In this document: piece by piece, positions 5,664 to 59,078 of the stretch | How positions within the stretch are numbered: position 1 is the stretch's first letter | Layout: each line of letters opens with the position of its first letter | Source: a virus | Length of the DNA stretch: 64,000 bases | Direction: 5' to 3' (one strand) | IMG/VR virus record: IMGVR_UViG_3300036981_000255 | Coordinates: 1-64,000 of that record | Made by a program: the position numbers and the translations under genes | The notes under the pieces: generated by a model | What the model saw: the letters and a program-made list of their open reading frames with translations, nothing else | Database searches by the model: none | What the model was told of the DNA's origin: nothing

Positions 5664-5666
5664 GGT

Positions 5667-6198: not shown

Positions 6199-6211
6199 GT
6201 TGTTATTTTAA

Positions 6212-38761: not shown

Positions 38762-38792
38762 TTGTTATTAGTTTGTGGCTTCGTCAAGAAGT

Positions 38793-39368: not shown

Positions 39369-39431
39369 TTTGTTTGTTTTCATCAATATAACAACCTTTT
39401 AACATTATTAAAGTGATGGCAATAGACAAAA

Positions 39432-39490
39432 AAAAGACATTCAAAGGATATTCAACCGAAAAATCCGTTGAAATTCTTTGAATGTCTTTT
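39432..39490. terminator. long stem-loop/terminator next to TnpB element 2
   Basis: AAAAGACATTCAAAG pairs with CTTTGAATGTCTTTT (15 bp), with an inner TTCAAC/GTTGAA stem. On the minus strand it would end transcription from the tail-tube side before the 38793 gene. Confidence 0.65.
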
Positions 39491-39670
39491 GACTTGGGGA
39501 TGTCTTTAGACTAGATAAAAAAACTGATGAAAGGTTAATAAAGTATTGTCATCGTTAATCAGTAACCATACAATATCGTTGAAAATCATATAAAAGTTCC
39601 ATAAAAAAAACTTTATCGCAACCGAGTTTACGAAGGTTTATCATAAACGAATTTATGAGGTTTAATTCCA

Positions 39671-39681
39671 ACTATTTATAG
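39671..39681 (+). promoter_or_regulatory. promoter-like ACTATTTATAG upstream of tnpB copy 2
   Basis: 31 nt before the TTG start, identical to the copy 1 site, while the surrounding sequence differs. Confidence 0.45.
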
Positions 39682-39712
39682 TTATATTATAACAAAAACA
39701 AAACACTATCAA

Positions 39713-40975
39713 TTGCTAAGAACATCCCGACATAGTATCAGTAACACAGCAAATCAAGGCAAACTCAATGTTTTGGGGCAATTCGTTAATGATTACAAAC
39801 ATGATGTTCAATTGTTTGTTAATAAGATTGTCAAAGGTGAATTTCCGTTACAAACACTATATTCTCCAAAGGGTGTTGAAGGTGCAATCTTAAAACACAG
39901 TAAATACAAACGTGACATTTACACAAAAGCAAGTCAAATAGTTAGAGGAGAAATAGCAGCAGCCGAGGAACGCAGATACCAAGCCTACAAGAAATTGTAC
40001 AAGAAACTTATTAAGCTAAATATTCATACTGCATTCACTAATAAACGATATAGCGAACTGAACCTCAAACACATTTTCAAAACCGATTTTTTCACTATTC
40101 CAGAAATCAAAAATATCACTATTGATTTGGCAAAAGATTTGGCTGACATTCAAGACGGCAAACACTTTGACAATTTTGTAAGAATCAAACTTCCATATTT
40201 CAATGAAAAAGGCACACGAGCCTTACAAATCAAGTTACCAGTCAAAAATTACAAACATTCAAACAATTTTATCACTAAAGGTTACACAAGAAAAACGTCA
40301 ATCCAACTAAAGAAAGTCAATAACAAATTCTTCATAAACTTCTTGTGGGAAAAAAACGAAATCAAAAAATCAAAACTATCTTTCAAACCCAAAGTAAAAG
40401 CCAAATCAAAAACAGACGAACGCCCTAAACAAAGCGACATAATTCTATCCAAAACAGATAACTCAATGGGCATTGACTTAGGCTACAAAAAACTAATTGT
40501 AACGTCTAAAGGTCAAATCTTAGGAACTGATATGATAAACATTTACAAGAAATTGGTGGCTTGTAAAAGTGGAACAGCAAAATATAAACGTTTAAAAAGA
40601 GAACGAGATAACAAAATAAACTTCTATGTCAATCAAATTGACTTTGATGGTGTTGAAGTTTTGAAAATCGAAGACCTCAAAGACGTAAAAAAAGATTCAA
40701 AAGGTAAAAAATCAAAAAAGATAAATTCACTTCTCTCAAAATGGATTTATCCAAAAATTATAAGTAAAATAACGATGACATGTGAGGACAAAGGTATTTT
40801 GTTGGTAAAGGTTTTACCAGCATATACATCACAAACATGTTCATCTTGTGGTGAAATACATAGAAAGAGCCGTAAAGGTGAACTTTACAAATGTGTTTCG
40901 TGTGGTTTTGAATTGGATGCAGACTTAAATGCAGCAATCAATATCAATAACAGAGGGAGCTTGCAGTCCCCTTAA
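39713..40975 (+). CDS. tnpB: TnpB RNA-guided nuclease, copy 2
   Basis: 420 aa. SMGIDLGYKKLIVTSKGQIL (RuvC-I), VLKIEDLKDVKKD (RuvC-II), CSSCGEIHRKSRKG…CVSCGF (zinc ribbon) and LDADLNAAININNRG (RuvC-III) are all intact. Clearly homologous to copy 1 along the full length but diverged, mostly in the linker before RuvC-I (about 210-240). TTG start, as in copy 1. Same function as copy 1, with a different guide. Its antisense position in the tail operon and the terminator-like hairpin to its left limit read-through. Confidence 0.92.
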   Translation: MLRTSRHSISNTANQGKLNVLGQFVNDYKHDVQLFVNKIVKGEFPLQTLYSPKGVEGAILKHSKYKRDIYTKASQIVRGEIAAAEERRYQAYKKLYKKLIKLNIHTAFTNKRYSELNLKHIFKTDFFTIPEIKNITIDLAKDLADIQDGKHFDNFVRIKLPYFNEKGTRALQIKLPVKNYKHSNNFITKGYTRKTSIQLKKVNNKFFINFLWEKNEIKKSKLSFKPKVKAKSKTDERPKQSDIILSKTDNSMGIDLGYKKLIVTSKGQILGTDMINIYKKLVACKSGTAKYKRLKRERDNKINFYVNQIDFDGVEVLKIEDLKDVKKDSKGKKSKKINSLLSKWIYPKIISKITMTCEDKGILLVKVLPAYTSQTCSSCGEIHRKSRKGELYKCVSCGFELDADLNAAININNRGSLQSP

Positions 40976-42110: not shown

Positions 42111-42296
42111 TCAGACAGGATTACAAACAACCGCACAAGTGAATGTCAATGCTTGAACATTTGGGCATTGTTGTGCTTGTTTTGCAGTAATCTGTGTATT
42201 CGTCATTATATCAAAATAAACCACAGACGTTGTAACAGTTCCATCTGGATTCATCATATTGATTGTCATTTTTCTAATGTTATCGCAATTAATCAT
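42111..42296 (-). CDS. hypothetical protein, 61 aa
   Basis: MINCDNIRKMTINMMNPDGT, then a Cys-containing beta-rich tail ending TCAVVCNPV. Lies between the tail tube and the 507-aa gene. Possibly a small virion protein; not recognised. Confidence 0.55.
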   Translation of the reverse strand: MINCDNIRKMTINMMNPDGTVTTSVVYFDIMTNTQITAKQAQQCPNVQALTFTCAVVCNPV

Positions 42297-42303
42297 AAGA
42301 TAT

Positions 42304-43827
42304 TTATTTTCTTTTTCTTTTTCTTTTGTTCTTGTTTGCTTTGAGCGCTTCTTGCTCTCTCAACTTTTTCATCGTTAATTTGATGAAAATTTCAACATTA
42401 CCTTTTACGTGGTTTACAACTGATTCATCTGTGAAAATTTTCTCTAACACATTGGACATTGATTTGAATGCTTCGTCTTTAAGATAAAGTCCTCGTGAGT
42501 TCTTGACAACATATTTTAAAATCGGTAAAGTCACAATTTCAGCAACTCTTGAAACACTTCTTCCATCAATAATGTTTTCAATATCTTGGTAATCCATACC
42601 AAAAACAGCCGTTTTGACTTCACGTTTGATTTCAGTTCGTAAATTTGGAAGATTGTCAAGAATACCATCCAATATTTTCCACTTATTCCGTTCAATTGAA
42701 CCCTTCAAATGCCTACCTTTAAACTCGTCATATTTATCACTAAAATACCCTTCAGACATTTGATTATTCATCAGTTTTTTCACACCTAAAACATCACCAA
42801 CATCAAGCAACGTTATCAACATCTTATGAATATTTTGTTTATCAATAGTGTTCAATTTTTCCATTGAATCAACAAACATTTTACTGATTTGATTACCGAT
42901 ATTAGAATCTAAATTTAAACTATCAAAAAACTTGTCCAAGTTTTCTTCACCATCATCAATAATTTTTACCAACTCTTTAATTTCAGGCGCAATAAAATCT
43001 TTGGCAGTTACTTCATTCAATAGTTTATCATAAATATCATAAGATTCATTTTTATTCGCTTGACTTTGCAAAAAACTGATGATTTCACGATATTTAGGGA
43101 CAAATGATTTTTTAACCCAATTGGAATATGTTTCTTTGTATTGTTTGAACTGTCCAATAGACTTTTCATCATTCATTTGACTTTCAACATTGTCGAAAAC
43201 ATTTAAAATGTTGTCATTTGATTTTCTACTAACTCCACTTGATTGTGGTTGGGCAGTTTTTGCATTTGGCAACACACTAGAAATCAAATCTTGGTATTCT
43301 TTTGAATTTGAAAGGTCTTGTAATTTACCTTTTAAAACTTTCTCAAGATTTGTCTGCAACATCTCACGAACTTTACCATTTCTCACAACTTCTCCAAGGG
43401 CTTCAAACACATGTCTATCGAGTTCACTATTACCAGTGGATACTTTGGACATTAATGGTGTATATTGACGGATTTTACCGCCTATGGATGCTTCACCGAA
43501 TGTCTTATCAACAAAGTAAGAAAGCATTGGAATCCCTATAAGTCTAAAGACGTTTTGATAGTCCGTAGAGTTTGGATTTTTTTGATAATCAGTCAACGTT
43601 TTTAAAATATCAACGTTTGATTTCCCTGCTTCAATTAACTTTTTGTACAAATATTTTGCAAATTCGCCTTCAAATGTTTGTGAAAGAATAGATGCAATTT
43701 TTTTGTTATTGATACTTTGTTCTGACGAGCCGAAATTACGAATCTTGTTCAATACAGATTTGGGGTCAATTTCATTCAATTGACCCCTCTGTTCAAGTTT
43801 TATTTGTTCAAGTATGTAATCTCGCAC
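42304..43827 (-). CDS. putative internal virion protein, 507 aa, with leader-like N-terminus
   Basis: GTG start (MRDYILEQIKLEQRGQLNE, then IDPK). The leader ends L-N-E like those of other tagged proteins. The body is helical with many Asn and Lys, and the C-terminus is strongly basic (KANKNKRKRKRK), suited to DNA contact. It follows the sheath gene by 13 nt. No enzymatic motif recognised. It may be a capsid-internal protein or a tail structural protein. Confidence 0.6.
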   Translation of the reverse strand: MRDYILEQIKLEQRGQLNEIDPKSVLNKIRNFGSSEQSINNKKIASILSQTFEGEFAKYLYKKLIEAGKSNVDILKTLTDYQKNPNSTDYQNVFRLIGIPMLSYFVDKTFGEASIGGKIRQYTPLMSKVSTGNSELDRHVFEALGEVVRNGKVREMLQTNLEKVLKGKLQDLSNSKEYQDLISSVLPNAKTAQPQSSGVSRKSNDNILNVFDNVESQMNDEKSIGQFKQYKETYSNWVKKSFVPKYREIISFLQSQANKNESYDIYDKLLNEVTAKDFIAPEIKELVKIIDDGEENLDKFFDSLNLDSNIGNQISKMFVDSMEKLNTIDKQNIHKMLITLLDVGDVLGVKKLMNNQMSEGYFSDKYDEFKGRHLKGSIERNKWKILDGILDNLPNLRTEIKREVKTAVFGMDYQDIENIIDGRSVSRVAEIVTLPILKYVVKNSRGLYLKDEAFKSMSNVLEKIFTDESVVNHVKGNVEIFIKLTMKKLREQEALKANKNKRKRKRK

Positions 43828-43840
43828 TTTTCGTTATTTG

Positions 43841-46800
43841 TTAAATATTTGTAAAATCAACCCCTACTGGTGAAAGCACAAATTCAATGTTGATGTACTC
43901 TAAAGTTCTAATAGGTTGAATCGCAATTTTACAATTCATGGCATTACTATTGAAACTATCGGCTGAACGGTCAATTTGAATTTGATAATCAAAAATACCA
44001 CGTTCATCACGGATGTTCGCCAAAATCGGATTCACAAGATTTTCAAATTGTCTTCTGACTTCTTCATCGTTTTGTTCAAACAATAATGTTAAAGACACAT
44101 CTTCAATTAAACGTCTCATGTACAAGATTAAACGTCTAACGTTGATACGGTCAAGAGCAGATTCTGCAATTTGTAGATTTTTATTACCCCAAATATACAC
44201 TGGGCTAGTTCCGTTTGCTTGTTTGAGTGTGATAAGTGAATTGATACGTCCTTCAAATAAAGCATCACGCTCATCGAATGTCAATTTCTTTCTCGCTTGT
44301 CTAAATTCAGTTTCACCTATTTTTGTACCAGCAGCAGCGCCCCAAGGTTTTCTCAATTTATCATTCAAAGCAAAAATACGCATCGCTTCAGCAGTGGGTG
44401 GCAACCACAAATAAACATTGTTCACTTCATCAAACATTTGACCCCAAGGAAAATACGTTGCTGTATAACTTGAGTCAAACAAACCATCAATTACACCAGC
44501 AGCATCTTTTGCTTTTAAAGTTTGTCCACCTGAATCTTGGTCAAGAGTAGTTGTAACGTAGAATGTATCACAACGCTCGTTTTCAACCATATCAATAGTT
44601 TCTTCGATAAGGTCAGTGTTTTCAGTTGTGTTCAAATTAGGTGTTGCCAACAAGTTCATACGAATTTCATCTCTATTCGCTAGAACTCTGATACCTTCCA
44701 AATATGCGTAAAAGTCAGAATTGATAACAGTTTGACCGTTATTGATATTTTCAGAAGAATATACACCAAAATTTCCACTGACTAAACCTTTTTGTCCAAG
44801 GCTTCCTTTTACAGAATATTGGTCTGTGTTTGTACGTCTTTTTCTATGAATATCCCAACCGTCAAAGCCACCATAAACCATCATTGTGAATTTTCTTGCG
44901 AAAACTTGTTCGTAATCAGTACCAACCATGTCAGATTCGTTTTGGAACGCAAATTCACCTCTGTCAAACTCTACAGCTCCAAAGCCTTCAACTGTTACCC
45001 CTGTGGCATTAACGTCCATGTGGAATCCATGTGTTGAACCTGTCCAAAATGGCAAATCTGGGTCAGATGGAACACCTTTATAAGTGAAAAAGTCAGCGTC
45101 AAAACCTAATGTGTCTGTAAATCCAAGGTAAACTTGACGTATTCTGTCAAAATCTTCGTACTTAGTTTTATAAACAATTTGCGGAGCTAAAGCACACTCG
45201 TAATCACGAACAGGATAGCCTTCAAAACCTGCTGGGAATGATTCATCTTGACATTGAACACCCATTTCAATCATAATGTGCTTACTTTGCAACACATGGT
45301 CTCCATCGACTGTACCAATACGTCTTGCGATATAGTTGGTATCATTGGCTCTCAACGTAACGTTTGTGAAACTTTCCAAAACCACAGGACGTTTATCTGT
45401 ATCACCATAAGAACGAACTTGAACATCAAAAGATTTTTTGTCAGGTCTTATGTTTGTAATAGACACTTTAACATCAGTGTTTGCAGCATCACCATCAGAA
45501 AATGTATGGAAACGGAACAAACGGAACACTCTGTTACCACGAAGCTCGGATACAACCCAAGGTGTCATAGCAGGTTGATATGGCTCTTTGTAATCGTCCA
45601 AATCTTGTGTATAACAAACAGTCGGCTTGATACAATAAATCAAACCATTTTCGTACAAATAATTGAATGTTGTACCAAAAAATTCCTCCAAATATAACTG
45701 TGTTGCAGGTGGGCAACAAGGAATAAATTGTGTAAATACACGTAGAATGAAATTCTTTTTGGTTTTGTCCAATGATACGTTGTATTCAAAAGCAACACCA
45801 TTTCTGTTTGTTCCTTTGATTAAGAAATCGTCCAATGGTTTTATAATGCCACCATCCAATGATTCAATAGTGACAACATTTCCTTCAACCGCAAAATTTA
45901 GAATTTCATCTCCGTCATAAGTTGCAAATGAACGAATCAAAGCAACAATAGTGTTATCGTATTGAGCATAAGGTGTTCCTGACAATTCAATAACAGTTCC
46001 ACTAAACTCGTGTGTCACTAAACCCGATGGAATTTGGGAAACCACTTGTTGTGTTGTGCCAGAAACCACCGAAGTTGTGATGATAGTTGTACCAGTTGTG
46101 ATAGTGAAATTGACACCTTGAATGGTTTCACAGTCATAAACTGCTGCGTTTCCTGCCAAGTCGCAAATTTTATATTCACCGCCACTGAAAACGTCACCGT
46201 TAGGGAAGAAAATCGAACCATTTTCAATCACTATAGAACCGTCAACATTATGTGTAATTGTTCCACCGACTAAAGTTACAATTCCAGATTCTACAATGGT
46301 AAGTTCATTTGTATCAACGTTTTGAACAACCATTGGGTTAGTAACTGTAATAACAAATGTACTATCAGTAGTAACTGTACCACCACTATAAAGCACAAGA
46401 CAATTTTGAACTTCACTTGGGACATCAATTGTAACACCAACAGCAGTTTCACCTGTGATACAAATATAAGTTTCTTCTGATGTCAGCAATTGCATGGTAA
46501 ATCTTGCGCCTGTGAAGGTTGAACAATCGCCCATCAATGTATTCCCCAAAGAAACTGATTGACCAGTCGCCAAATCTGCTCCACCGAAAACAGTAGTTGC
46601 AATTTCACCTGCATCATACAAATCTTGCAAAACGGTGTTGCTGAAAGTTACGTTAGAAACTGCGCCATTTGCATACTTGATAGTAGCAGTGAAAGCAGAA
46701 GTTGAAGTTGTTGTGATAGTTGCAGGGTCAAGTGATGCGCCAAAAGAAATACCCCAAGAATCACCAGCATCATATCCTGTGAATCCTAAAATTCTACTGA

Positions 46801-47074
46801 CGAATAGTTGGTCTGATTCTTTCAAATATTGTTTTGCAATATACGACCCTTCGTAAATCGGTTGTTGACCTTCTGCATATTTACAAGCATCCAAATCTCC
46901 AAAGCATTGTTTGAAAAGGGAATAAGTATTAATTGCGATAGGTGTAAATGCACGTCCTTTGGGAAACTCACCAGCTATACCCAACGATGTTATACCAAAG
47001 TTTTGAGTGGTGAAAGTTAAGTCAGTTTCAGTAAAATTTATAGACGGACTAAGATTTGGTCTTTGAGTTGCCAT
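43841..47074 (-). CDS. tail sheath protein (T4 gp18-like), enlarged
   Basis: 1077 aa, against about 660 in T4. N-terminus MATQRPNLSPSINFTETDLT… GEFPKGRAFTPIAINTYSLF and C-terminal third (PWGAAAGTKIGETEFRQARK, LINSLITLKQ-like region, IDRSADSFNSNAMNCKIAIQ, EFVLSPVGVDFTNI) are the conserved sheath core. The C-terminal part provides contraction contacts. About residues 130-430 are a Thr/Val/Gly-rich insertion of beta type, probably surface domains. The late-type motif CAAATATTTATAAT lies 17 nt upstream. Confidence 0.9.
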   Translation of the reverse strand: MATQRPNLSPSINFTETDLTFTTQNFGITSLGIAGEFPKGRAFTPIAINTYSLFKQCFGDLDACKYAEGQQPIYEGSYIAKQYLKESDQLFVSRILGFTGYDAGDSWGISFGASLDPATITTTSTSAFTATIKYANGAVSNVTFSNTVLQDLYDAGEIATTVFGGADLATGQSVSLGNTLMGDCSTFTGARFTMQLLTSEETYICITGETAVGVTIDVPSEVQNCLVLYSGGTVTTDSTFVITVTNPMVVQNVDTNELTIVESGIVTLVGGTITHNVDGSIVIENGSIFFPNGDVFSGGEYKICDLAGNAAVYDCETIQGVNFTITTGTTIITTSVVSGTTQQVVSQIPSGLVTHEFSGTVIELSGTPYAQYDNTIVALIRSFATYDGDEILNFAVEGNVVTIESLDGGIIKPLDDFLIKGTNRNGVAFEYNVSLDKTKKNFILRVFTQFIPCCPPATQLYLEEFFGTTFNYLYENGLIYCIKPTVCYTQDLDDYKEPYQPAMTPWVVSELRGNRVFRLFRFHTFSDGDAANTDVKVSITNIRPDKKSFDVQVRSYGDTDKRPVVLESFTNVTLRANDTNYIARRIGTVDGDHVLQSKHIMIEMGVQCQDESFPAGFEGYPVRDYECALAPQIVYKTKYEDFDRIRQVYLGFTDTLGFDADFFTYKGVPSDPDLPFWTGSTHGFHMDVNATGVTVEGFGAVEFDRGEFAFQNESDMVGTDYEQVFARKFTMMVYGGFDGWDIHRKRRTNTDQYSVKGSLGQKGLVSGNFGVYSSENINNGQTVINSDFYAYLEGIRVLANRDEIRMNLLATPNLNTTENTDLIEETIDMVENERCDTFYVTTTLDQDSGGQTLKAKDAAGVIDGLFDSSYTATYFPWGQMFDEVNNVYLWLPPTAEAMRIFALNDKLRKPWGAAAGTKIGETEFRQARKKLTFDERDALFEGRINSLITLKQANGTSPVYIWGNKNLQIAESALDRINVRRLILYMRRLIEDVSLTLLFEQNDEEVRRQFENLVNPILANIRDERGIFDYQIQIDRSADSFNSNAMNCKIAIQPIRTLEYINIEFVLSPVGVDFTNI

Positions 47075-47510: not shown

Positions 47511-48518
47511 TTACAATTTACGTCCACAAACCTTAATATTGACCACATTGTTGCCAATGTTGTGTGCCACAATCAATTCATCAGACCTTCTCACAACAAA
47601 AGGCAATTGAACTATAGAACCATTGACAAAATAATCGTAATCATTTGACGGATTTTGATTGTCATAATATAATTCTAAATCCATTGGAATTTTTATTGTT
47701 TTACTTTTGCCAGTTTTTTTTGTGAATTTGAAATTGAAACATAGGTCACAATCTGCATTTTCAGTTGTAATAACACACTCGTTGGGGTTGGGTTTACCTG
47801 TTTCAATAGCTAACGTTATTTTGTCAACAGAAGATAATTTTTTATAATCTTCTTCACGAAGCAAATACCCTTTGAGTGTCATGGTATAAGTCTTGTGATA
47901 GTAACGTCTTTTGTCAATATTTGAAGTTTCTGATGAATCGTCCATTGATTCCAAATAAAGTGGCATATAATGTCCATTGACTTGAATATAATATTGAGCT
48001 TCTTTGAAATTGTGCAAAACAAGTTCGTCCATTCTATTCAATTCTTCAATAAATCGACAAAAGATATGAATTTTATATCCAACGTCAATATTGACTGGCT
48101 GTGGAATTTGATAATATTCTACTGATGTTTTGCCATTCTTTAGAATGGGTCTTCGCCATAGATTGAAGGTGGGTGTGCTTGGAACGTTGTAGTTTCCTCC
48201 TAAATTCGTACCCTTCTTAGTAGATTCCCGAACAAGCGCAATGAATGGCAGTTTCACAGTGTTTGTATTATCTGTGTTTTGCCAAAGGCTCATGTGTTCT
48301 GCATATCTTTCAATTGAAAAAATGGAAATCGTTGGAATTTTAACACCATTTGAAACAATTTCAAAGCCATTTTCAAAAGCCAATTTTACACATCTATCCA
48401 TATCGTCTAAATGGATACCCTTTGGAAAAAAGGTATCTCCTTTGACAATATTTTTGACAAGTTGTGTTGCTTGTTCTTTACCTTGTAGAATTTGTTTGAC
48501 TTTTATTGTTTTTTTCAT
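47511..48518 (-). CDS. putative neck/tail-completion protein (gp15-like position)
   Basis: 335 aa. Core FNLWRRPILKNGKTSVEYYQ, IPQPVNIDVGYKIHIFCRFI, EAQYYIQVNGHYMPLYLESM and RRYYHKTYTMTLKGYLL follow the pattern of tail terminator or sheath-stabiliser proteins in T4-like phages (P-V-x-I-x-Y, then a 'ghYM' segment, then G-Y). Located between portal and sheath, where such genes usually are. Exact T4 equivalent (gp3 or gp15) cannot be decided by eye. Confidence 0.55.
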   Translation of the reverse strand: MKKTIKVKQILQGKEQATQLVKNIVKGDTFFPKGIHLDDMDRCVKLAFENGFEIVSNGVKIPTISIFSIERYAEHMSLWQNTDNTNTVKLPFIALVRESTKKGTNLGGNYNVPSTPTFNLWRRPILKNGKTSVEYYQIPQPVNIDVGYKIHIFCRFIEELNRMDELVLHNFKEAQYYIQVNGHYMPLYLESMDDSSETSNIDKRRYYHKTYTMTLKGYLLREEDYKKLSSVDKITLAIETGKPNPNECVITTENADCDLCFNFKFTKKTGKSKTIKIPMDLELYYDNQNPSNDYDYFVNGSIVQLPFVVRRSDELIVAHNIGNNVVNIKVCGRKL

Positions 48519-48535
48519 TAACGATTAATAAAAAG

Positions 48536-50482
48536 TTACATTTTTTCGATAAATTTTTTCATTTTTTCTATGGCATTTTCAAATAAAACGTCCTTAGATT
48601 TTTCACTTTTACCGTTTGTTTTGATGTTGTCAAAATTTTCAATCAAAAGTGGTTTTTTCTTATTGTGTGATTCAACCTTTTCAGTTGGTTGTTCGGTTGT
48701 TTCTGCTGCGCCCTCTTCTGCCCCTGTATCTGCTCCGCCTTCGCCTTCAGTTCCACCTTCCACGTCTAAACCAAGGTCTGCATCGTCAAATTCACCACCA
48801 ATATCGCTGCCACCCAAATCACCACCGCCTAGTCCACCGCCACCGCCTAGTCCACCGCCACCACCTCCTCCGCCACCACCGCCCAAGTCATCTCCACCAC
48901 CACCACCATCTGTCCCTTCTGTGGATGGTTTGGATATACCCATAGATTCATCACCGTAAAGGCTGATGATGTTATCAAATAAAGTGGTTTTGCTGACAAC
49001 TTCTGGTGCTTTTTCAATTTCTGCCCCTGCTGCTCTTTCCAAATATTGTTGTTCAAAATCAAGCTTGATTTCGTTGTTAGTTTGTCCAAGAATTTCTTTT
49101 TTAGCTTTTGTAACAGACATTGCAGATAAACCGAAACCATTTGCATCTGAAACAGCATTTCTAAAGATATTGATTTGTTTGTCAAGCAAATCCATACGCA
49201 TTATTTCAGATTGGATAGACGGATTGTTCAAAGATAGTTCAAAATTTGACATTTCGTCTTCCAATCCAAGCAATAATAAATGAACTAAAGCAATTTTATT
49301 CAACTCCATGATAACAGATTGTTGAATTCTATTGATTTTTCGTGCAAATCTTATGTCTTGCATGGACAAATTCTTACCTTCACCTGCTGCGTCTTCAAAT
49401 TGTAAAAATGGTTTTGGAATACCTAATGCAGCAAATAATTGATTCAAATCGTATTCAATATCGGCAATATCAGCAATATTTGATGCGCCTTGGATGGTTT
49501 CAATTCTTGTACCTTCATCTTTATCACGAATAGGAATGAAATAATCTTGGTCATATCCCATGACATTAAATTTCAAATCTTCTTGACCAGTATAAGGGTC
49601 AACTTGTTTTGTTCGTTTAAACCTGTCAGTAATTTTGTCCATGAACGCTTCAACATCTGCTGGGTCAATATTACCAACATTGATGTAATAGGCTCTACGG
49701 TCAATCGCTCGAAGTAAACGGAGAGTTCTCATGGCATCTTCCACAAGCAAAAGATTTTTCCAAATTCTTCTGGCTTTTTCTAAAACCGAAACACCATAAG
49801 GAAGTCTTCTGTCATCTACTAAAAGTCTAAAGTGAGCAATTTGATAATATTTAAACTCAACTATGTCTAATGATTTCCAACGAAAAACCGTTTCATTTTC
49901 ATCATAATTAAGGTAACTTTGCATTGGATTTACGCCATCAACTTCTAATCTTTCAACTTCAATTGTTGGCAATTGTCTTGCGCCAGTGATTCCATTATCA
50001 CCATCCATTGACAAATAAACAAAATTATCACCTGTTTTCACCATATTTCTAGTCCACATGAAAAGATTGGTGTGAATATTCAAACGATTGAAAAACAAGT
50101 CTTCCAAGGCTTCTTGAACACGTTTACTTTCGGAATATATGTTGAGAACTTTACCCTTTACGTTTGTTGTTGTTGATTCTTCTGCTAAAATGTCTAAAGC
50201 TTGCCCAATAATTGGATAATGTTCCATCAAATCATAATCAAGATAAGATGGATAACGTTGAGTTTCATAAACCAATGACTTATTATGAATATGTCTTGAG
50301 ACTTTTTTCCATTGAGCTTGAAAGAACTTCTCTTGTTGTTTTTCAAGTTTTTTGGTTTCATATTCAGCTCTATTGGTTGTCCTTAGAATTTCTTTCGGTT
50401 GACTTGAATCATATCTCCCAATAGCTTTATCAGTTTTGAAATAATTTGTAAGGCTATTGAATTTTGTGAATATTGTTGACAT
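48536..50482 (-). CDS. portal protein (T4 gp20-like) with Gly-rich C-terminus
   Basis: 648 aa. PSYLDYDLMEHYPIIGQALD, WTRNMVKTGDNFVYLSM, IPKPFLQFEDAAGEGKNLSM and QDIRFARKINRIQQSVIMEL are conserved portal motifs. The dodecameric portal is the DNA channel and starting point of head assembly. Residues about 520-600 are almost only Gly, Asp, Leu and Ser, then a basic/amphipathic tail (KKKPLLIENFDNIKTNGK). This long Gly tract is absent from T4 gp20. No terminase gene is visible in the window. Confidence 0.88.
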   Translation of the reverse strand: MSTIFTKFNSLTNYFKTDKAIGRYDSSQPKEILRTTNRAEYETKKLEKQQEKFFQAQWKKVSRHIHNKSLVYETQRYPSYLDYDLMEHYPIIGQALDILAEESTTTNVKGKVLNIYSESKRVQEALEDLFFNRLNIHTNLFMWTRNMVKTGDNFVYLSMDGDNGITGARQLPTIEVERLEVDGVNPMQSYLNYDENETVFRWKSLDIVEFKYYQIAHFRLLVDDRRLPYGVSVLEKARRIWKNLLLVEDAMRTLRLLRAIDRRAYYINVGNIDPADVEAFMDKITDRFKRTKQVDPYTGQEDLKFNVMGYDQDYFIPIRDKDEGTRIETIQGASNIADIADIEYDLNQLFAALGIPKPFLQFEDAAGEGKNLSMQDIRFARKINRIQQSVIMELNKIALVHLLLLGLEDEMSNFELSLNNPSIQSEIMRMDLLDKQINIFRNAVSDANGFGLSAMSVTKAKKEILGQTNNEIKLDFEQQYLERAAGAEIEKAPEVVSKTTLFDNIISLYGDESMGISKPSTEGTDGGGGGDDLGGGGGGGGGGGLGGGGGLGGGDLGGSDIGGEFDDADLGLDVEGGTEGEGGADTGAEEGAAETTEQPTEKVESHNKKKPLLIENFDNIKTNGKSEKSKDVLFENAIEKMKKFIEKM

Positions 50483-52363: not shown

Positions 52364-52900
52364 ATGAAAAACCGTAAAATATATCTAAGTGAATCACAAA
52401 TCAAAGGCTTAAAATCAATAGGATTGCAAGAAATAATTGATGCAGATGGCTCTCTAATAAGTGGCGATGAAATTTCTAACGAAAAAACCATTAAAACCAA
52501 CACTATAAAACCCGATGGACGACCACAAACATCTGATGATTTTGCTAAAGAAACAGGTAAGCAATCTGACATGTATTTGAATCGTTATGGTTTTTCAATT
52601 ACAGAAGGTGAAGATGCGTTGACAGAAGCAGACGACTTTGTATCTAATAATGCAAAACCGAGTGGATTCATGGATAAAAATTCAAAAATCCCTGAAACTA
52701 CTGAATTATCAAAAAGTTATAAAAAACCCGATATTCAAAGCTCTTTGAATGATTTGATACGCAAAATAACTCAAAATTCAATTGAAAAGGAATTGCAACA
52801 AGATATTAACGCAATTGTATTGAAAGGGTTGCTATCATCTGTTAATTTTAGTAATATGAAACCACAACACAAAAAAGAAATCCAAAATATGTTAAAATAA
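52364..52900 (+). CDS. leader-tagged hypothetical protein, 178 aa
   Basis: Starts with KIYLSESQIKGLKSIGLQE, a version of the KIxLxESQ leader found in the next genes. The rest is polar with two Lys/Asp-rich regions (KAN-free) and a C-terminal helical part (NDLIRKITQNSIEKELQQDI). No domain recognised. First gene of the plus-strand operon; the next ATG overlaps its stop by one base. Confidence 0.6.
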   Translation: MKNRKIYLSESQIKGLKSIGLQEIIDADGSLISGDEISNEKTIKTNTIKPDGRPQTSDDFAKETGKQSDMYLNRYGFSITEGEDALTEADDFVSNNAKPSGFMDKNSKIPETTELSKSYKKPDIQSSLNDLIRKITQNSIEKELQQDINAIVLKGLLSSVNFSNMKPQHKKEIQNMLK

Positions 52901-53907
52901 TGGCAAATAGCGATTTGGTTGGAAAAATGTGGAAAATTCCAAGTCCATATTTATCAAAATTAAGAGAAAAATTGAACAATCATCAAGGTGATAAACACGT
53001 TGAAGGGTACACTCGACTTCAAAATCTTTTGCAAAGTGGTAAAATATCTTACGAGAATTTGAAGAATGTGAAACACATTCTGGACAAGAATATAAAAAAT
53101 GAAACTATCTACGAATTAAATGGCGGTAAAGATTTTCACCGATGGATTAACGACCAACTATCAGTTGCAAGAAATAGTATTGAAAGCGGAAAGAAAATTC
53201 AGAAAGATGTTGGAAATCAGAACGCATACAAGAAACCTCACGAAAAAGATTCAACAAACAAAGGGAAAGTTCGTACAGCAAGACTCGACAAATCTACAAG
53301 TTCAAAAGACATTTATAACAATAATGTGAACTATGAATCTGTTCAAAGGTCATCTATTAAAATTGTAATATCTGAAAGTCAATATCGTCAACTTTTCCAA
53401 GAATCAAATGATATTCCAATTAGCCCATCAGTTATTAACGAAATATTGAAAGGTTATATTCAAGCTGCGCTATGGCTTGAAAAGGAAAGATTGGAGGAAG
53501 ATTTTAATTCTATCATGGGTTATGACGATGAAGATGACTATGACTATGAAGAATCCGAAGAGACTAATGAACTTCAAAAGTTGATTAAAATGTCAGCAGA
53601 TATCAATAAAAAATCTTTTGATAGTTTTATGGCACAGGATATGGATTCAAATTCAAAAATTCAAGCCTATTTGGACATTAAAGATTTTATAAAATCTGCT
53701 GGAATGGATGCAATCAACGAAGTTTTAGAAACAGACGGAGCAAATGACTTAGGAATGGATATTTGGCTCACAAGAAATCGTCATGGTGCAGGTTTTTTTG
53801 ACCGAACTTACGACCATGAATCGGAATTAATGGATGCAGCTCATAAATTAGGCGAAGTTGACCTATATATTGGGGACGATTTGTTATTATATTTTAGCAA
53901 TATTTAG
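52900..53907 (+). CDS. two-part protein with internal leader motif, 335 aa
   Basis: Residues 1-115 (MANSDLVGKMWKIPSPYLSK… EGYTRLQNLLQSGKISYENL) form a helical domain seen in other large phages, function unknown. At about 153-167 stands KIVISESQYRQLFQESND, which elsewhere in this operon is an N-terminal leader. After an acidic stretch (YDDEDDYDYEESEE) the C-terminal domain has DIWLTRNRHGAGFFDRTYDH and DLYIGDDLLLYF, a widespread phage domain of unknown activity. Looks like a fusion of two genes, or a precursor cut in the middle. Confidence 0.6.
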   Translation: MANSDLVGKMWKIPSPYLSKLREKLNNHQGDKHVEGYTRLQNLLQSGKISYENLKNVKHILDKNIKNETIYELNGGKDFHRWINDQLSVARNSIESGKKIQKDVGNQNAYKKPHEKDSTNKGKVRTARLDKSTSSKDIYNNNVNYESVQRSSIKIVISESQYRQLFQESNDIPISPSVINEILKGYIQAALWLEKERLEEDFNSIMGYDDEDDYDYEESEETNELQKLIKMSADINKKSFDSFMAQDMDSNSKIQAYLDIKDFIKSAGMDAINEVLETDGANDLGMDIWLTRNRHGAGFFDRTYDHESELMDAAHKLGEVDLYIGDDLLLYFSNI

Positions 53908-53910
53908 AAA

Positions 53911-54513
53911 ATGAAAATAATATTAACCGAAAATCAATATAATTCACTATTCAACGAAATCTATTTTTCCACTTTCAGTGAAAACCAACAAACGCCAGTA
54001 AACTGTGATTGCTGTCAATATTTTGATTTTGAATCTTTGATGCAATATGGTGGCTTCGAGCATCCCATTTATTATCTTATCAATAAACGTGAGACTAATG
54101 ACCTTCAATTCATGTCTCCTGATGATTATATAAAATCCATTGCCAAAGCATCAAACCTTTCGACTTCTGAAATAGTAAATTCAAATGTTGTTTTTCAACA
54201 AAAAATAGATAAATATGCCGAGTTGATGCGAAACGGCACTAAGTTCCCTATCGGTTTTTATACAATTGGTAAATCTTATCAAGAAGGTCGTCATCGAACC
54301 TTGGCAGCAAAACAAATTGGTTGTTTATCAATACCTATGGTAAGGATTGTAAAAAATATTTCAACAAAAGATGTTGAGAAAGTCGTAAGAGGTTTGATTG
54401 GAAAGTCAAGAGAAGTGGTCAATCAAATGTATGTCGATAAGGGCTTTAAAGGGATTACAGATTTGGATTGGCGAGAATTAAACAATTATCAAAAATATTA
54501 CTTAAATCAATAA
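53911..54513 (+). CDS. leader-tagged ParB/sulfiredoxin-fold-like protein, 200 aa
   Basis: Leader MKIILTENQYNSLFNE (1-16). CDCCQYF at 32-38. C-terminal part PIGFYTIGKSYQEGRHRTLA then AKQIGCLSIPMVRI fits the GxHR motif of the ParB-like/sulfiredoxin fold, which binds nucleotide phosphates (EGRHR at 125-129). In this fold the motif hydrolyses CTP in ParB or acts as kinase or nuclease in others. Role in this phage unknown; the tag suggests virion packaging. Confidence 0.5.
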   Translation: MKIILTENQYNSLFNEIYFSTFSENQQTPVNCDCCQYFDFESLMQYGGFEHPIYYLINKRETNDLQFMSPDDYIKSIAKASNLSTSEIVNSNVVFQQKIDKYAELMRNGTKFPIGFYTIGKSYQEGRHRTLAAKQIGCLSIPMVRIVKNISTKDVEKVVRGLIGKSREVVNQMYVDKGFKGITDLDWRELNNYQKYYLNQ

Positions 54514-54515
54514 AA

Positions 54516-54989
54516 ATGAAAATATTTCTGAACGAAAGTCAATATAAAGTGTTATTTGAAAATTCTGCAACTAAAACAAAACTCAAAGGTTTAAAACCTA
54601 TGGGAGTTTATATGAAAGCAGCATTTGATTCTGGGTATGATGAAGAATCAATGGCAAAAATGCAAATCAATAGATTTTTGAGCCGTCTAACAAATTTGCC
54701 AGAAGTTGTAACGTTATATCGAGTTGTTTTTGTTGATGATGAATCAAAGATTGACCATGTAAACATTGGTGAACATTATGGTGTCAATGAGCGAAACCTT
54801 TTAGCAAGCCATTACAGACAATCACACGTTGGAGGTGGAAAACCATTCTTGTTAACAGTCAAAGCAGATAGAAATCTTGTGAATTTCCATGAAACTCTTT
54901 TGAATAATATCATCTATCCACATGAAAACGAGATTACTTTGAAGAACAATGGACGTGGTGCAAATATTGTGAAAATTAAACCGTTGTAA
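54516..54989 (+). CDS. leader-tagged R-S-E type ADP-ribosyltransferase-like protein, 157 aa
   Basis: The start MKIFLNESQYKVLFE is chosen because it aligns with the leaders of the neighbours; the frame is open 48 nt further up into the previous gene. TLYRVVFVDD gives a candidate catalytic Arg69. After a short beta strand (PFLLTVKA) comes YPHENEITLKNNG, with Glu137-Asn-Glu139 as an ExE motif followed by a beta strand, as in arginine-specific toxins and T4 Alt/ModA. The middle STS motif is not clear. The family call rests on motif order. Probably injected with the DNA. Confidence 0.55.
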   Translation: MKIFLNESQYKVLFENSATKTKLKGLKPMGVYMKAAFDSGYDEESMAKMQINRFLSRLTNLPEVVTLYRVVFVDDESKIDHVNIGEHYGVNERNLLASHYRQSHVGGGKPFLLTVKADRNLVNFHETLLNNIIYPHENEITLKNNGRGANIVKIKPL

Positions 54990-54990
54990 A

Positions 54991-56217
54991 TCAACCAATT
55001 CTAATATTTAAGTCTAACAAAGATTCCATATTAAAATTCAAAAGTTTTTTCACCATATCATCTTGTGATGTTGGAAGTCCGTGGTATGGATGAACATGGT
55101 TTGCAATGACGTTCTTTAGAAGATTCAAAAAATCCACAAGATTATCACCATAAACCATTGGATGTGCAGTAGAGTTGATTTCTAATTGCGTTGCATCATC
55201 AATTTGCTTCTCTGGGTCTGTTAAGTTATAGTTTTTTGCGCTTTTATGTGACAGAAGATTTAATTTTTCTGCCACAAGATTCATCACAGAACCTGCGAAT
55301 TGGTCATATTCATTGGCTTTTTTATCTTCTACTTGTTGTTTGACAATCTTTTGATTGTTAGGGAAAATCGTTGGCTCACTTGCAAGTTCTTGCTCGGATG
55401 TGTTCAAATTCCATTTAACGTATGTGCGTTGAAAGTCTTTAATTTTTCTCTTAGTTGCACTAATCAATTCCTCACGACTTGCATAACCTTGATTGAAATT
55501 TTCTTCAATAAAATTGTCAGATAGGCGAATGACTTTAATCATCAGACGATTTTGACTGTCACTTGTGATGTTAATGTTATGGGTCGCAGGAATATTTTCA
55601 ACCTTTGTGATTGTTTTGAAAGTCTTTTGATTGGATGCGTTTTCAATTCCATAACGCATTTGAATAAAAACAGGGTCTTTACGATTGAATGAGGTTGGTT
55701 TATCCTTTTCATGCTTACCTGCTCGAATCAAAACCTCACTATCTTTGAAAATTAAGTCTGTATTTTTACGTCCCTGCAACCCAATTTGGTCTTTGGTGAG
55801 ATATGTACCTTTAGCAGTTGGAATTTCTGAAATTGGCGTTCCACGTTCTACCCAACCATCAGACTCGTTAGATGTTGCTGTGTAATAGAATGGGTCAAAG
55901 TCAAGATTTTCAATTTGAGAAATGGTGATAGCAAGATAATAACGCTTCTCTTGATTTGTTGTTTTATCAGCATTATAGATTCTATCTAAGACAACGGCAA
56001 CTCTTTCCCCAACTTTAGGAACAAAATGCAAAAATGGGCTTGTTAATGGATAACAAGGTGGCAAATCAGCATTCTCTACCCTTTTGTCAAAGTCTGGAAT
56101 CCGAACTTTGATTTGTCTTGTCTCATAAGGGTCTGTAATGTCAACAACTTCACCGAAATATATAATCCTTTCTGAAAGTTGAACATCATTAGGTGAAAAG
56201 GAATCTGGTCTGCCCAT
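54991..56217 (-). CDS. gp5-OB-fold baseplate spike-like protein, 408 aa
   Basis: IIYFGEVVDITDPYETRQIK, VRIPDFDKRVENADLPPCYP and VPKVGERVAVVLDRIYN match the OB-fold domain of gp5/VgrG-like spike proteins. C-terminus HPMVYGDNLVDFLNLLKNVI, ANHVHPYHGLPTSQDD resembles the trimerising tip region of baseplate spikes. It sits convergent with the plus-strand operon (one base between stops). Lysozyme domain absent, consistent with the lysin domain being on the hub protein. Confidence 0.65.
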   Translation of the reverse strand: MGRPDSFSPNDVQLSERIIYFGEVVDITDPYETRQIKVRIPDFDKRVENADLPPCYPLTSPFLHFVPKVGERVAVVLDRIYNADKTTNQEKRYYLAITISQIENLDFDPFYYTATSNESDGWVERGTPISEIPTAKGTYLTKDQIGLQGRKNTDLIFKDSEVLIRAGKHEKDKPTSFNRKDPVFIQMRYGIENASNQKTFKTITKVENIPATHNINITSDSQNRLMIKVIRLSDNFIEENFNQGYASREELISATKRKIKDFQRTYVKWNLNTSEQELASEPTIFPNNQKIVKQQVEDKKANEYDQFAGSVMNLVAEKLNLLSHKSAKNYNLTDPEKQIDDATQLEINSTAHPMVYGDNLVDFLNLLKNVIANHVHPYHGLPTSQDDMVKKLLNFNMESLLDLNIRIG

Positions 56218-56230
56218 TGTTGTAAATACT

Positions 56231-56446
56231 TTAGTAATAATATCTTAAATCTATCTTCAAACCGTCCAATCTATGAATAAATTCACTTGTCAACAACCGT
56301 TCTTTAAAAAAGACTGTATTTTTAGTGCCATCCTTAAATTTAACAGATGGCACTCTGTTGTCAAATTCTTTTGAAACTTTTTCTATTTCGGCTTCAACTG
56401 TTTCGATAGAGATAAAACCGAATTTAAGCATTATTTTTTTAAACAT
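56231..56446 (-). CDS. hypothetical protein, 71 aa
   Basis: MFKKIMLKFGFISIETVEAE with a predicted helix and beta tail (VSKEFDNRVPSVKFKDGTKN). Precedes the spike gene by 14 nt. Function unknown. Confidence 0.5.
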   Translation of the reverse strand: MFKKIMLKFGFISIETVEAEIEKVSKEFDNRVPSVKFKDGTKNTVFFKERLLTSEFIHRLDGLKIDLRYYY

Positions 56447-56466
56447 GACTTATGTTTTTATTTTAG

Positions 56467-56631
56467 CTATTTACTATACTTCCATTTAAGGTATTCTTCA
56501 CGTGTTTCAAAGCCATTATCTTTAGCTTCTTGAACCAGTAATCTGTCTAAGAAATCTCTACATATTAAACTAGCCCTTGGTCTAATCCCAATCGGAAATT
56601 GTGGTGTTGGCGGTGTCACATTTTGTTCCAT
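56467..56631 (-). CDS. hypothetical protein, 54 aa
   Basis: MEQNVTPPTPQFPIGIRPRA, then CRDFLDRLLVQEAKDNGFET and a basic tail EYLKWKYSK. Its NGF(E/A) helix segment recalls DNGFASNENV in the next gene. Unknown. Confidence 0.5.
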   Translation of the reverse strand: MEQNVTPPTPQFPIGIRPRASLICRDFLDRLLVQEAKDNGFETREEYLKWKYSK

Positions 56632-56636
56632 AATAA

Positions 56637-56852
56637 TTAATTCAAGTTAGGTTTCAAAATAGCATCAATAGACTTCAAAACGTCTTTTGACCTTTCAACG
56701 TTTTCGTTTGATGCGAAGCCATTATCTACAAATTTTTGTAGATAATTGAGCAGCATTTGTTGTTGGATTTTCCATTCTTCTAATTCTCCGACATTTAGTA
56801 GTTGGATTGTCTCATTTATCTCGTTTGAGATTTCCTCTTCTTCGCTAATCAT
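56637..56852 (-). CDS. hypothetical helical protein, 71 aa
   Basis: All-helical (EIETQ-free; NEINETIQLLNVGELEEWKI, QQMLLNYLQKFVDNGFASNE). Shares a 4-nt overlap with the upstream gene. Not recognised. Confidence 0.55.
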   Translation of the reverse strand: MISEEEEISNEINETIQLLNVGELEEWKIQQQMLLNYLQKFVDNGFASNENVERSKDVLKSIDAILKPNLN

Positions 56853-57133
56853 AATTGTTTGTTTATTTCATTATATAAAGCTGCTTTTTCTTTGACTTTC
56901 GAAATTTCTTCTATTTCAAACTCATCTGACCCTCCAAATAATGGGTATTTTGTATATAAAATCTTCCCTACTCCGTCTACTACGAATTGGATACTCCCAA
57001 GACACATCCCAACAGTGAAACTCTTAACAGTTTTAAATACGTCATAGATTTTCCCTTGTTTATCATAAGCAATTAAATCTTCACATTTTTCAATGTCTTG
57101 TAATTGACCGTTGATTTCTACTTGTTTTTTCAC
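56849..57133 (-). CDS. hypothetical protein, 94 aa
   Basis: Beta-rich (IQFVVDGVGKILYTKYPLFG). N-terminal MKKQVEINGQLQDIEKCEDL. Preceded by the repeated leader at 57161-57216. Not recognised. Confidence 0.55.
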   Translation of the reverse strand: MKKQVEINGQLQDIEKCEDLIAYDKQGKIYDVFKTVKSFTVGMCLGSIQFVVDGVGKILYTKYPLFGGSDEFEIEEISKVKEKAALYNEINKQL

Positions 57134-57160
57134 TTTATTAAAATTTAATGATTAAAAAAT

Positions 57161-57216
57161 AAACCTTTCATAAGATTCTAAAACTAGAACCAAAAGATTT
57201 TCAATAAAGTTCCTTT
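57161..57216 (-). repeat. intergenic leader repeat, copy A
   Basis: On the minus strand AAAGGAACTT…AGAATCTTATGAAAGGTTTA; about 75% identical to 61550-61608. Includes a possible mini-ORF MKGLFFNH. Lies directly after a gene stop and before the 56849 gene. Confidence 0.55.
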
Positions 57217-57757
57217 AGATAAAATCTTTTTCATCGACATAAGAATAATCTATTGATGTTTTTAATTGTGGTAAGCCAACATTTAATGCTGATACAACTC
57301 TATGATGACCATCTGTAACAACCCAAGCATATCTTCCTAAATCATCTTCTGTTATTTTTTCACCACTCAAAAAATATTTAAACCTTTCAATGTCACCTTC
57401 ATCAATAATGATAGGGTAGCCTTTTATTGGTGGGAAGTCATGCTCCATCATTTTTAATCTCATTTCATCAGAATATTTTTCTATTTTATCAGATGAAATG
57501 GGATTGGCAAAAGCAGATATTACATAATCTGGTGAAATCCATCCTCTGTTTTTTAAAGGTTCGTCAAATGTTGGCTCATCAGTTTTTTTCACTAAACTTT
57601 TATGTATCCAAGAACCTTTAGGAAAATTATTATTTTTAAAAAAATATTGGGTATCCGTTTTATCTAAAATCTTACCGTAATTGGTATTATCTCCAATATT
57701 TGCGTTTTCGTTCAAATATTCTCTTATAGTGGTCGCTACAAACTTTCTTAGTCCCAT
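57215..57757 (-). CDS. leader-tagged ParB-like-fold protein, 180 aa
   Basis: Leader MGLRKFVATTIREYLNE (1-17), ending L-N-E|N. Body: RGWISPDYVISAFANPISSD, then YPIIIDEGDIERFKYFLSG and AWVVTDGHHRVVSALNVG (DGHHR at 149-153), then LPQLKTSIDY. The GHHR signature and the flanking strand/helix match the ParB/sulfiredoxin-like nucleotide-binding fold. Similar motif in the 53911 protein but little else is shared. Own promoter motif. Activity unknown. Confidence 0.55.
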   Translation of the reverse strand: MGLRKFVATTIREYLNENANIGDNTNYGKILDKTDTQYFFKNNNFPKGSWIHKSLVKKTDEPTFDEPLKNRGWISPDYVISAFANPISSDKIEKYSDEMRLKMMEHDFPPIKGYPIIIDEGDIERFKYFLSGEKITEDDLGRYAWVVTDGHHRVVSALNVGLPQLKTSIDYSYVDEKDFI

Positions 57758-57770
57758 ATTTATTCAATTT

Positions 57771-57783
57771 ATTATAAATATTG
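57771..57783 (-). promoter_or_regulatory. candidate late promoter of the ParB-like gene (CAATATTTATAAT)
   Basis: 13 nt before the ATG, between 57758 and 57785, close to the sheath version. Confidence 0.55.
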
Positions 57784-57785
57784 AA

Positions 57786-58175
57786 CTAACTAATAACACC
57801 AGTTCCAGTAGCAAAATTAATGGTTGCGCCTTGCACTACAACAGAACCGACAGGACACACCCCTGTGGCTGTTAGCGGAATACCTGCTGGAATTACAATT
57901 GTTAATCTAGCGTCTTCAAGGATAGCTCTGACGATTTCTTCAATACGAATGCGTTCCATTTTTTCTGTAACGCTTTCAGAGCCATCTGGTAAGTTGCCAA
58001 TAGGCGCACCAGCTTCTTGTTGCCTTGTGATAATTTTTTTAGCAATGCTTCTTGCAGACAATCCAACACGACTAAAGCCACCACTTAAAATCAAAGGTGG
58101 TGGCACAGGAAGGGCTGACGATGTGTTTGTTGCGATTACCGCTTGTACGATTTGTACTATTTCTTCGGTTGTCAT
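57786..58175 (-). CDS. hypothetical virion-type protein, 129 aa
   Basis: Helical N-terminus, Pro-rich PVPPPLILSGGFSRVGLSAR, then a beta-rich C-terminal half (LTIVIPAGIPLTATGVCPVG, VVVQGATINFATGTGVIS) resembling small structural proteins. It follows the 58172 gene with an ATGA overlap. Function unknown. Confidence 0.55.
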   Translation of the reverse strand: MTTEEIVQIVQAVIATNTSSALPVPPPLILSGGFSRVGLSARSIAKKIITRQQEAGAPIGNLPDGSESVTEKMERIRIEEIVRAILEDARLTIVIPAGIPLTATGVCPVGSVVVQGATINFATGTGVIS

Positions 58176-58522
58176 TGTTTAAATTCGTTTAAAACAGTTT
58201 CAATTTTACTTAGATTTTCGCCAGAAATTGAAGAAGTTTCATCATCACCATTTTCAGATAATACCCTAATCATGCAAAATTTTGCAAAATTTAACTTGTC
58301 TTGAGAATTTGATTTTAAATATGATGATAATTCTTTAAATCTATTGATTAATTCACTGAAAATCATGTCTGTATCTTTGACATTAGCTGGAACTCGCATT
58401 GTAAAACTTTGACCGCCTGTATCGCATAATCGTTTTAATTCTTCCAAAGCCAATTCTATGAGTTCGTTGTTTGTCATATTGACTCGTGCTTCGTCAAAAA
58501 TTTCTGTTAATGTTTTTTGCAT
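58172..58522 (-). CDS. hypothetical helical protein, 116 aa
   Basis: Helical with acidic segments (NDELIELALEELKRL-like start TNNELIELALEELKRLCDTG) and a short serine stretch ETSSISGENLSKIETVLNEF. Not recognised. Confidence 0.55.
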   Translation of the reverse strand: MQKTLTEIFDEARVNMTNNELIELALEELKRLCDTGGQSFTMRVPANVKDTDMIFSELINRFKELSSYLKSNSQDKLNFAKFCMIRVLSENGDDETSSISGENLSKIETVLNEFKQ

Positions 58523-58530
58523 GTTTGTTA

Positions 58531-58668
58531 TTATCTACTAAATTTTTTAGAATTATCTTTCGGATACAATACTTTCATCAATTTCTTCCACTCTTTGTCG
58601 GAAATATCTTTTGATGTTAAACTTGTATCATCAGAATTTGTCAAGTTTTTGTTTTCGTTGTCGGTCAT
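58531..58668 (-). CDS. hypothetical protein, 45 aa
   Basis: MTDNENKNLTNSDDTSLTSK, then DKEWKKLMKVLYPKDNSKKF. Small charged protein, 5 nt from the GNAT gene stop. Not recognised. Confidence 0.45.
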   Translation of the reverse strand: MTDNENKNLTNSDDTSLTSKDISDKEWKKLMKVLYPKDNSKKFSR

Positions 58669-58673
58669 TATTA

Positions 58674-59078
58674 TTAAATCAGTTTATTTTTTTCCCAATA
58701 TTTTTTTATTTCTGGTGATTGCTTTATTGGTGAAGGTTTAATTTTTTCGCCAATAGCATCTTCAATAAATTTATATAAATATGTTGCTAACCCTAATCTT
58801 CGATACTCTGGTTGTATTCGGATATTATCTAAATACACACCATCAAAATTAGAATCATAATCATTTAACGATGCCGACCCAACTTCACCAACACCATCAA
58901 CTTCGATGACGAATTTTTTACTATGGTTAAGTTTCAAAAAATTATAAATCACACCATTAATATTTAACCTTTTCCATATTGAAATCATGTCTAAATCATC
59001 TTTATTTAAAGGCATAGATTCAAAACCTTCACTTATAGTGACATGTAATATTCCGTTTATAAATTTTCTTATGTTCAT
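58674..59078 (-). CDS. leader-tagged GNAT-family acetyltransferase-like protein
   Basis: 134 aa. Leader MNIRKFINGILHVTISE|G (1-17), an I-S-E|G site. The rest fits a short GNAT domain: strands YNFLKLNHSKKFVIEV and GSASLNDYD, then VYLDNIRIQPEYRRLGLATY (RRLGLAT at 93-99, the acetyl-CoA P-loop motif) and LYKFIEDAIGE. GNATs move acetyl groups from acetyl-CoA to amines. In a capsid-packaged enzyme the target could be a host protein; this is inference. Confidence 0.6.
   Translation of the reverse strand: MNIRKFINGILHVTISEGFESMPLNKDDLDMISIWKRLNINGVIYNFLKLNHSKKFVIEVDGVGEVGSASLNDYDSNFDGVYLDNIRIQPEYRRLGLATYLYKFIEDAIGEKIKPSPIKQSPEIKKYWEKNKLI

Follow-up and report, generated by a model that had tools for sequence, protein, structure and literature searches.

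In the window analysed here, a 64,000-base stretch comprising bases 1–64000 of the 98,616-base IMG/VR virus record IMGVR_UViG_3300036981_000255, which is classed as linear and probably incomplete, we found that proteins with unrelated bodies begin with shared short leader peptides. These leaders are N-terminal, modular and conserved at the protein level, they end at an (I/L)xE site, and they are exchanged between homologous bodies at that site. They are best read as address labels by which proteins are loaded into the phage head, with the loaded proteins probably being injected into the next host. We think it likely that the leaders are capsid-targeting propeptides that would be cut off by the prohead protease, and that the bodies would be ejected along with the DNA and so enter the next host; scaffold binding, cleavage, presence in the virion and injection are steps that we infer from the sequences. 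The initial annotation had named six such N-termini, all of which are in the sequence as described, and had taken the leader for a sorting signal ending at a T4-type (I/L)xE. The observation holds, and it extends further than that annotation had claimed. The core of the proposal has strong support from end-site enrichment, from leader swaps at the site and from the presence of genes for a gp23 capsid and an S77 protease in the same records, and head loading and injection are what we infer from it.

One leader family, leader A, follows the pattern K(I/L)I(I/L)(T/S/N)ExQYxxL-x-E. In this record it is carried by two N-termini and one internal site in the window and by five N-termini beyond the window (record positions 72243, 86138, 86947, 91401, and 92022). 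The protein at 53911–54513 (+ strand) begins with MKIILTENQYNSLFNE (53911–53958; N-terminal leader-A score 37.0), with the predicted cut at its end, and the next protein, 54516–54989 (+), begins with MKIFLNESQYKVLFE (54516–54560; score 36.6) followed by N; the gene of the latter starts at the ATG at 54516, inside the open reading frame (ORF) 54468–54989. The internal copy, KIVISESQYRQLFQE followed by S (53359–53403, +; score 34.2), lies at the domain junction of ORF 52900–53907 and is the highest-scoring match that is not N-terminal. A leader-A-like N-terminus, MKNRKIYLSESQIKGLKSIGLQE followed by I (52364–52432, +), was weakly matched by a regular expression in the protein 52364–52900, whose orthologue in the relative G004 has a different N-terminus.

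Leader A is almost confined to protein N-termini. A degenerate leader-A motif had 49 matches in all of IMG/VR, of which 48 are N-terminal and the 49th is clipped by a contig edge. A score matrix of 14 columns, built from the leaders and applied at a threshold of at least 18 to about 2.3 million windows of local DNA, gave 237 non-redundant N-terminal matches versus 7 elsewhere; among these 7, three come from the second copy in a tandem leader, and the others lie within multidomain proteins. Among about 85,000 genomes of bacteria and archaea, none had a match to the motif MKIII(T/S)ExQY. A tblastn search of leaders A and C (the latter described below) against cultured phages returned nothing useful and revealed no leader-bearing phage, but queries of this length have little sensitivity, and the evidence is correspondingly weak. 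The bodies of the 257 leader-A proteins form 109 clusters, so it is the leader that is common to them and not the bodies.

Leader A also occurs in two unusual arrangements. It is found in tandem at the N-termini of L312, L361, and L392; in the tandems of L312 and L361 the first copy has no (L/I)xE end, while the second retains it. A leader-A-like sequence, KIIVTEEQFRFIQKNKI, stands at the extreme C-terminus of a G004 protein (L031, about 2977–3030) that is a homologue of the N-terminal domain of 52900–53907, hinting that the tag may be functional at a C-terminus too.

The leaders end at a recurrent site. In T4, (I/L)xE is the established cleavage consensus of gp21, and the T4 gp23, gp22, ipII, and ipIII sequences fit it. 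Because circularity was to be avoided, leaders were picked by their front half only (M-K-phi-phi-phi-x-E-x-Q-Y) and then dereplicated; a hydrophobic-x-E lies four to eight residues past the front half in 58 of the 77 leaders, as compared to 11.8% of random body windows. Position P3 of this site holds L in 44 cases, I in 13 and V in one, P2 is unrestricted, and S, Q, and D are commonest at P1', so that the Gly or Asn reported after the site by the initial annotation is not general. A second family, leader C (MKKIVRLTESDL...xE, with the front half RLTESDLxRIVKRVI), was first found on a leader-swap partner; of its 71 dereplicated proteins, 70 have Glu at position 22, residue 21 is free, and conservation stops at Glu22.

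That such N-termini are short hydrophobic stretches resembling each other by chance has some footing in the bare counts: (L/I/V)xE occurs at residues 10–24 in 32% of the genes of G000, against 24–29% of downstream windows, and LxE alone is no proof. Such sites are common everywhere, which makes a per-genome count a poor test. For leader A, chance resemblance was rejected on the N-terminal restriction found by both searches and on the lack of matches in bacterial and archaeal genomes, and for leader C it is excluded by Glu22; it may still apply to single proteins of the looser leader B class, e.g., 55–657 and 42304, and as an account of the leaders as a whole it is scarcely probable.

Codon usage indicates what has been kept. 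Within genomes, identical leader residues are encoded by different codons in 38–46% of cases in G000, G004, G014, and G015, where 41–47% would be expected if codons were chosen independently. Since this is nearly independent choice, mainly the peptide has been kept and not the DNA. G023 and G036 have lower values (33% and 28% versus 44–46% expected), which suggests some recent duplication there. We therefore consider it very improbable that the peptide has no role and that the shared 5' ends spread as DNA, for instance through a recombination joint or as a translation-start cassette; the somewhat high codon identity in G023 and G036 and the clustering of leader genes in G015 would suit this explanation, but in the other four genomes residues are conserved with codon differences near independent expectation, and DNA-level copying was rejected for leader A as contradicted by these data.

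The predicted cut site is also where leaders change. Homologues of leader-A bodies that do not carry leader A were collected, and the junction was projected onto each, giving 49 pairs after strict dereplication. An (L/I/V)xE lies no more than one residue from the projected junction in 34 of the 49 (control 4.9%; binomial tail about 2e-33) and exactly at the junction in 26 (control 1.7%); in a looser set of 95 pairs, which held repeats of the same subject, 58% lie within one residue. A few of the partners carry a diverged leader A and not a distinct leader. Homologues of 54516 bear either a leader A ending in INE (L386) or another short leader, MKLLPILSE (L298, L314, and L391), and the kinase-like protein at 83000 (...FILDE/AYPEAF, the slash marking the cut) matches a leader-A protein of G011 (...NKIFE/MAYPVTF). 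In a clear example of swapping, a protein with a weak DHH match occurs in four phages with four leaders before SGIR, namely MKMVITESQYKRLLNE, MKNLIRKFLKEHTLILE, MKKLIIE, and MKDLIIKIMIEESKKLLVE; elsewhere the same body forms the C-terminal part of a longer ORF, and the junction reads LNE, INE or ISE.

In the window, ORF 52900–53907 (+) is a fusion in which a conserved N-terminal domain, the internal leader A and a second domain follow one another, the parts being separate in relatives: residues 1–137 match a stand-alone G004 protein, and residues 169–332 match a stand-alone L009 protein with its own leader, MKIKLNELKVLVKRIINE. In relatives, L398:8111-8668 and L369:2093-3100 encode sigma factors of the extracytoplasmic function (ECF) type behind leader A, and in L369 the sigma domain is downstream of another domain, with ILTE and the predicted cut just before it.

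The bodies behind the leaders are diverse. Of the body types listed by the initial annotation, GNAT was confirmed by Pfam for 58674 (PF00583, Acetyltransf_1, 28.2 bits versus a cut-off of 20.7, E 2.5e-6), while ParB-like was not confirmed: 53911 has a ParB-like-looking segment yet no Pfam match, and 57215 has no ParB-like profile match, with DUF1015 at E 0.076. The body behind the 54516 leader (54561–54989, +) resembles an ADP-ribosyltransferase (ART); its AlphaFold2 model is of low confidence in the leader region and mostly confident in the body, and the best matches in the PDB, which are weak (E 0.04, TM 0.35–0.41), are ADP-ribosylating toxins. The body of 55–657 stays below the curated Pfam cut-offs (PARP, 14.8 bits versus 26.7; ART-PolyVal, 13.5 versus 31.2), and several ART-like proteins in the record are weakly supported. 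Two leader-A proteins of the record, 91401 and 92022, are leucine-rich repeat (LRR) proteins, and the model of the kinase-like 83000 was unusable (pLDDT 41). Behind leader A in relatives, Pfam matches include phage lysozyme, cell-wall hydrolase, SLT transglycosylase and ECF sigma factor. Head-packaged ARTs are known from T4 Alt and have been widely predicted (PMC9503650, PMC5512222). These bodies (ART-like, GNAT, LRR and kinase-like proteins here, peptidoglycan hydrolases and ECF sigma factors in relatives) would suit cell entry and host take-over.

Leaders A and C keep company with T4-type head genes. The records with a clear match to the gp23 capsid (10 with leader A and 15 with leader C) have an S77 protease in 25 of 25 cases; no leader-A or leader-C record has the protease without a capsid, and one further record has a weak capsid match only. 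Leader-bearing records with neither gene are mostly short, although three exceed 150 kb. The phage itself is T4-like, since it encodes a T4 gp20-type portal protein (48536–50482, −; phrog_213, E 4e-50); a contractile tail sheath is encoded at 43841–47074 (−; phrog_23, E 5e-37). By portal, its closest cultured relatives are Microcystis phage Mel-JY01, Flavobacterium phage immuto and Rhodothermus phage RM378, at 30–39% identity. In five of the eight nearest portal relatives, both the PF07068 capsid and the PF03420 protease score above the curated thresholds; a sixth shows a weak match to the S77 protease that is clipped at an end. In the 125.6-kb relative G004, the portal is followed by the protease, a scaffold-like acidic protein and the major capsid protein (MCP). 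This protease–scaffold–MCP cassette, which lies 3' of the portal in relatives, is found neither beside the portal here (window 47511–50482) nor elsewhere in the record, and the head cassette of this phage may be located in the missing part of the genome.

We propose that the front half of a leader (KIIITExQY in A, RLTESDLxRIVKRVI in C, IRxIL-type helices in B) would bind to the prohead during its assembly, at the scaffold or core, and so draw in the protein behind it. Cleavage by the T4-type S77 prohead protease would then follow at the terminal (I/L)xE, just past its Glu, and release the body within the head, and the freed bodies would leave with the DNA and enter the next host. Several points weigh against this proposal. 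We found no virion data for leader-bearing phages, and neither the gp23-type capsid (PF07068) nor the S77 prohead protease (PF03420) has a match anywhere in the 98.6-kb record. The co-occurrence of S77 and gp23 was counted in leader-bearing records. The residue after the cut is not limited to A or G in the leaders, tens of cargo proteins per phage would be far above T4, and about a quarter of leader-A proteins have no (L/I)xE where it is expected.

The last of these points, together with the general commonness of (L/I/V)xE in these proteins, would fit leaders that are uncut docking peptides, with (I/L)xE merely the end of a short helix. Without cutting, however, a free middle residue between the conserved L/I and E is unexpected, as are the exact match of the site to swap points and its presence at fusion junctions, and we regard uncut docking as quite improbable. 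The leaders might alternatively be cleaved for some other role, with effectors held inactive until cut or docked to the membrane, the tail or a phage compartment. The evidence for a cleavage site is silent on where a protein goes, and some of the bodies, of lysozyme or cell-wall hydrolase type, might serve in lysis; but the site is of the prohead-protease type, the leaders accompany gp23 and S77 genes, and head loading in T4 uses the same layout, so that a role of this sort is unlikely.

A broader reading of the capsid-targeting account is possible, and we put it forward tentatively. Large phages known only from uncultured sources and having heads of the T4 type may use several exchangeable leader families within a single genome to sort tens of effectors into the head (sigma factors, cell-wall hydrolases and ART-like enzymes), including fused cargo with internal cut sites, and leader A may mimic the end of the MCP propeptide (LxENQAxxLLxE) to enter the prohead. 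In the 292-kb G015, which has 335 ORFs, loose patterns pick out about 54 N-termini that look like leaders; they belong to four classes, and many cluster at 206–275 kb. The MCP propeptides of these and other T4-like phages end in LxENQA(K/S)xLLxE (one or two have ENEA instead) and resemble the E(S/N)QYxxLxE of leader A; this likeness ranks with the top 2–3 internal windows in G004, G005, G008, and L004 but only near the top 0.3–2.3% in the others. Because we noticed the likeness post hoc and it is top-ranked in few genomes, it is kept as a suggestion only. A cultured relative, Flavobacterium phage immuto_2-6A (NC_055915), has its own leader, MENFDLKKFLVENKLTxNSK, on three proteins (1803, 103806, and 118632).

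The initial annotation had distinguished two leader types. Leader A holds, with seven N-termini and one internal site, while leader B (57215, 58674, 55–657, 42304, and 22079) is a looser class of short IRxIL-type helices. No homologues of 57215, 58674, 55–657 and 42304 were found, so their leader B rests on resemblance. The candidates, all on the − strand, are MGLRKFVATTIREYLNE followed by N in the protein 57215–57757 (57707–57757), MNIRKFINGILHVTISE followed by G in the GNAT protein 58674–59078 (59028–59078), MTLQKYINNLIVENLSLNE followed by G in the ART-like 55–657 (601–657), and MRDYILEQIKLEQRGQLNE followed by I in 42304–43827, which has a putative GTG start (43771–43827). The acidic protein 22079–22879 (−) begins with MKQRFNIDKLTERINLVSE followed by Y (22823–22879); its homologues in G011, G015, G016, and G023 have different N-termini, each reaching (L/I)xE. 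Orthologues keep the (L/I)xE end for 22079 and 82632, and in this record leader B is backed by a leader swap only at 83000–83680. The late-type promoters that the initial annotation had placed near leader genes were not recovered, TATAAATA or TATTTAT being upstream of none of the seven leader-A genes in the record.

Several other genes of the window and its relatives deserve mention. ORF 42304 was rejected as a capsid protein, having no relative in the PDB, and PF07068 is without a match in the record. ORF 13722–16202 (−) matches terminase large subunit profiles at residues 210–580 and a DnaB-like helicase profile at 567–808. A similar pair of ORFs at 1343–2593 and 39713–40975 (+), with matching N-termini RxSRHSISNTAN, lies on the strand opposite most genes and has, by eye only, a transposon-type (TnpB-like) look. 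In relatives, intein-like inserts interrupt S77 and portal sequences and make the genes much longer than usual (G004, 38390–40246 and 42294–44813, L032 and L033; G005, 3606–6752, L038; G016, 125408–127234).

Among known systems, the capsid-targeting sequence (CTS) of the T4 internal proteins IPI–III, taken together with the Alt and gp24 propeptides and cut by gp21, has the same layout: a short N-terminal leader on unrelated mature parts, with the targeting half first and the (I/L)xE processing site last. The T4 sequence is 10–19 residues long, its first part governing targeting and residues 8 and 10 governing processing (PMC9026906). The related phages share the T4-type portal, MCP and S77 protease, and T4 has an ART among its cargo, as an ART-like protein is among the putative cargo here. 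In contrast, the leaders described here have no demonstrable similarity to MKTYQEFIAE beyond a short common pattern, several families occur per genome (with about 54 candidates in G015 versus a handful in T4), and leaders are swapped between homologous bodies and also stand inside fused proteins. In the giant phages phiKZ and SPN3US, many head-protein propeptides are cut after Glu by a prohead protease and a large load of protein is ejected (PMC5694885, PMC9026906), whereas their motif is (S/A)xE, the majority of the propeptides are longer than 100 residues, and unrelated bodies do not as a rule have a leader in common. Polyvalent proteins and MuF- or portal-fused effectors likewise bring together disparate effector domains, including ARTs, that are predicted to be packaged and injected (PMC5512222, PMC9503650), but their packaging is predicted from structural-domain fusion or gene neighbourhood and not from a short cleavable leader.

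Our literature searches, which covered an open-access collection, found no description of these leaders. They are best explained as capsid-targeting propeptides working in the manner of T4, but in a system whose leader families are new and multiple and whose carriers are far more numerous. Phage proteins that are carried in the head and injected are normally known only through proteomics on cultured phages. A readable leader with its cut site would let injected effectors be listed from sequence in phages that have never been grown, and would single out candidates for host take-over or anti-defence among hundreds of unknown genes. The leaders would also provide short tags, possibly independent of one another, with which proteins could be loaded into phage heads.

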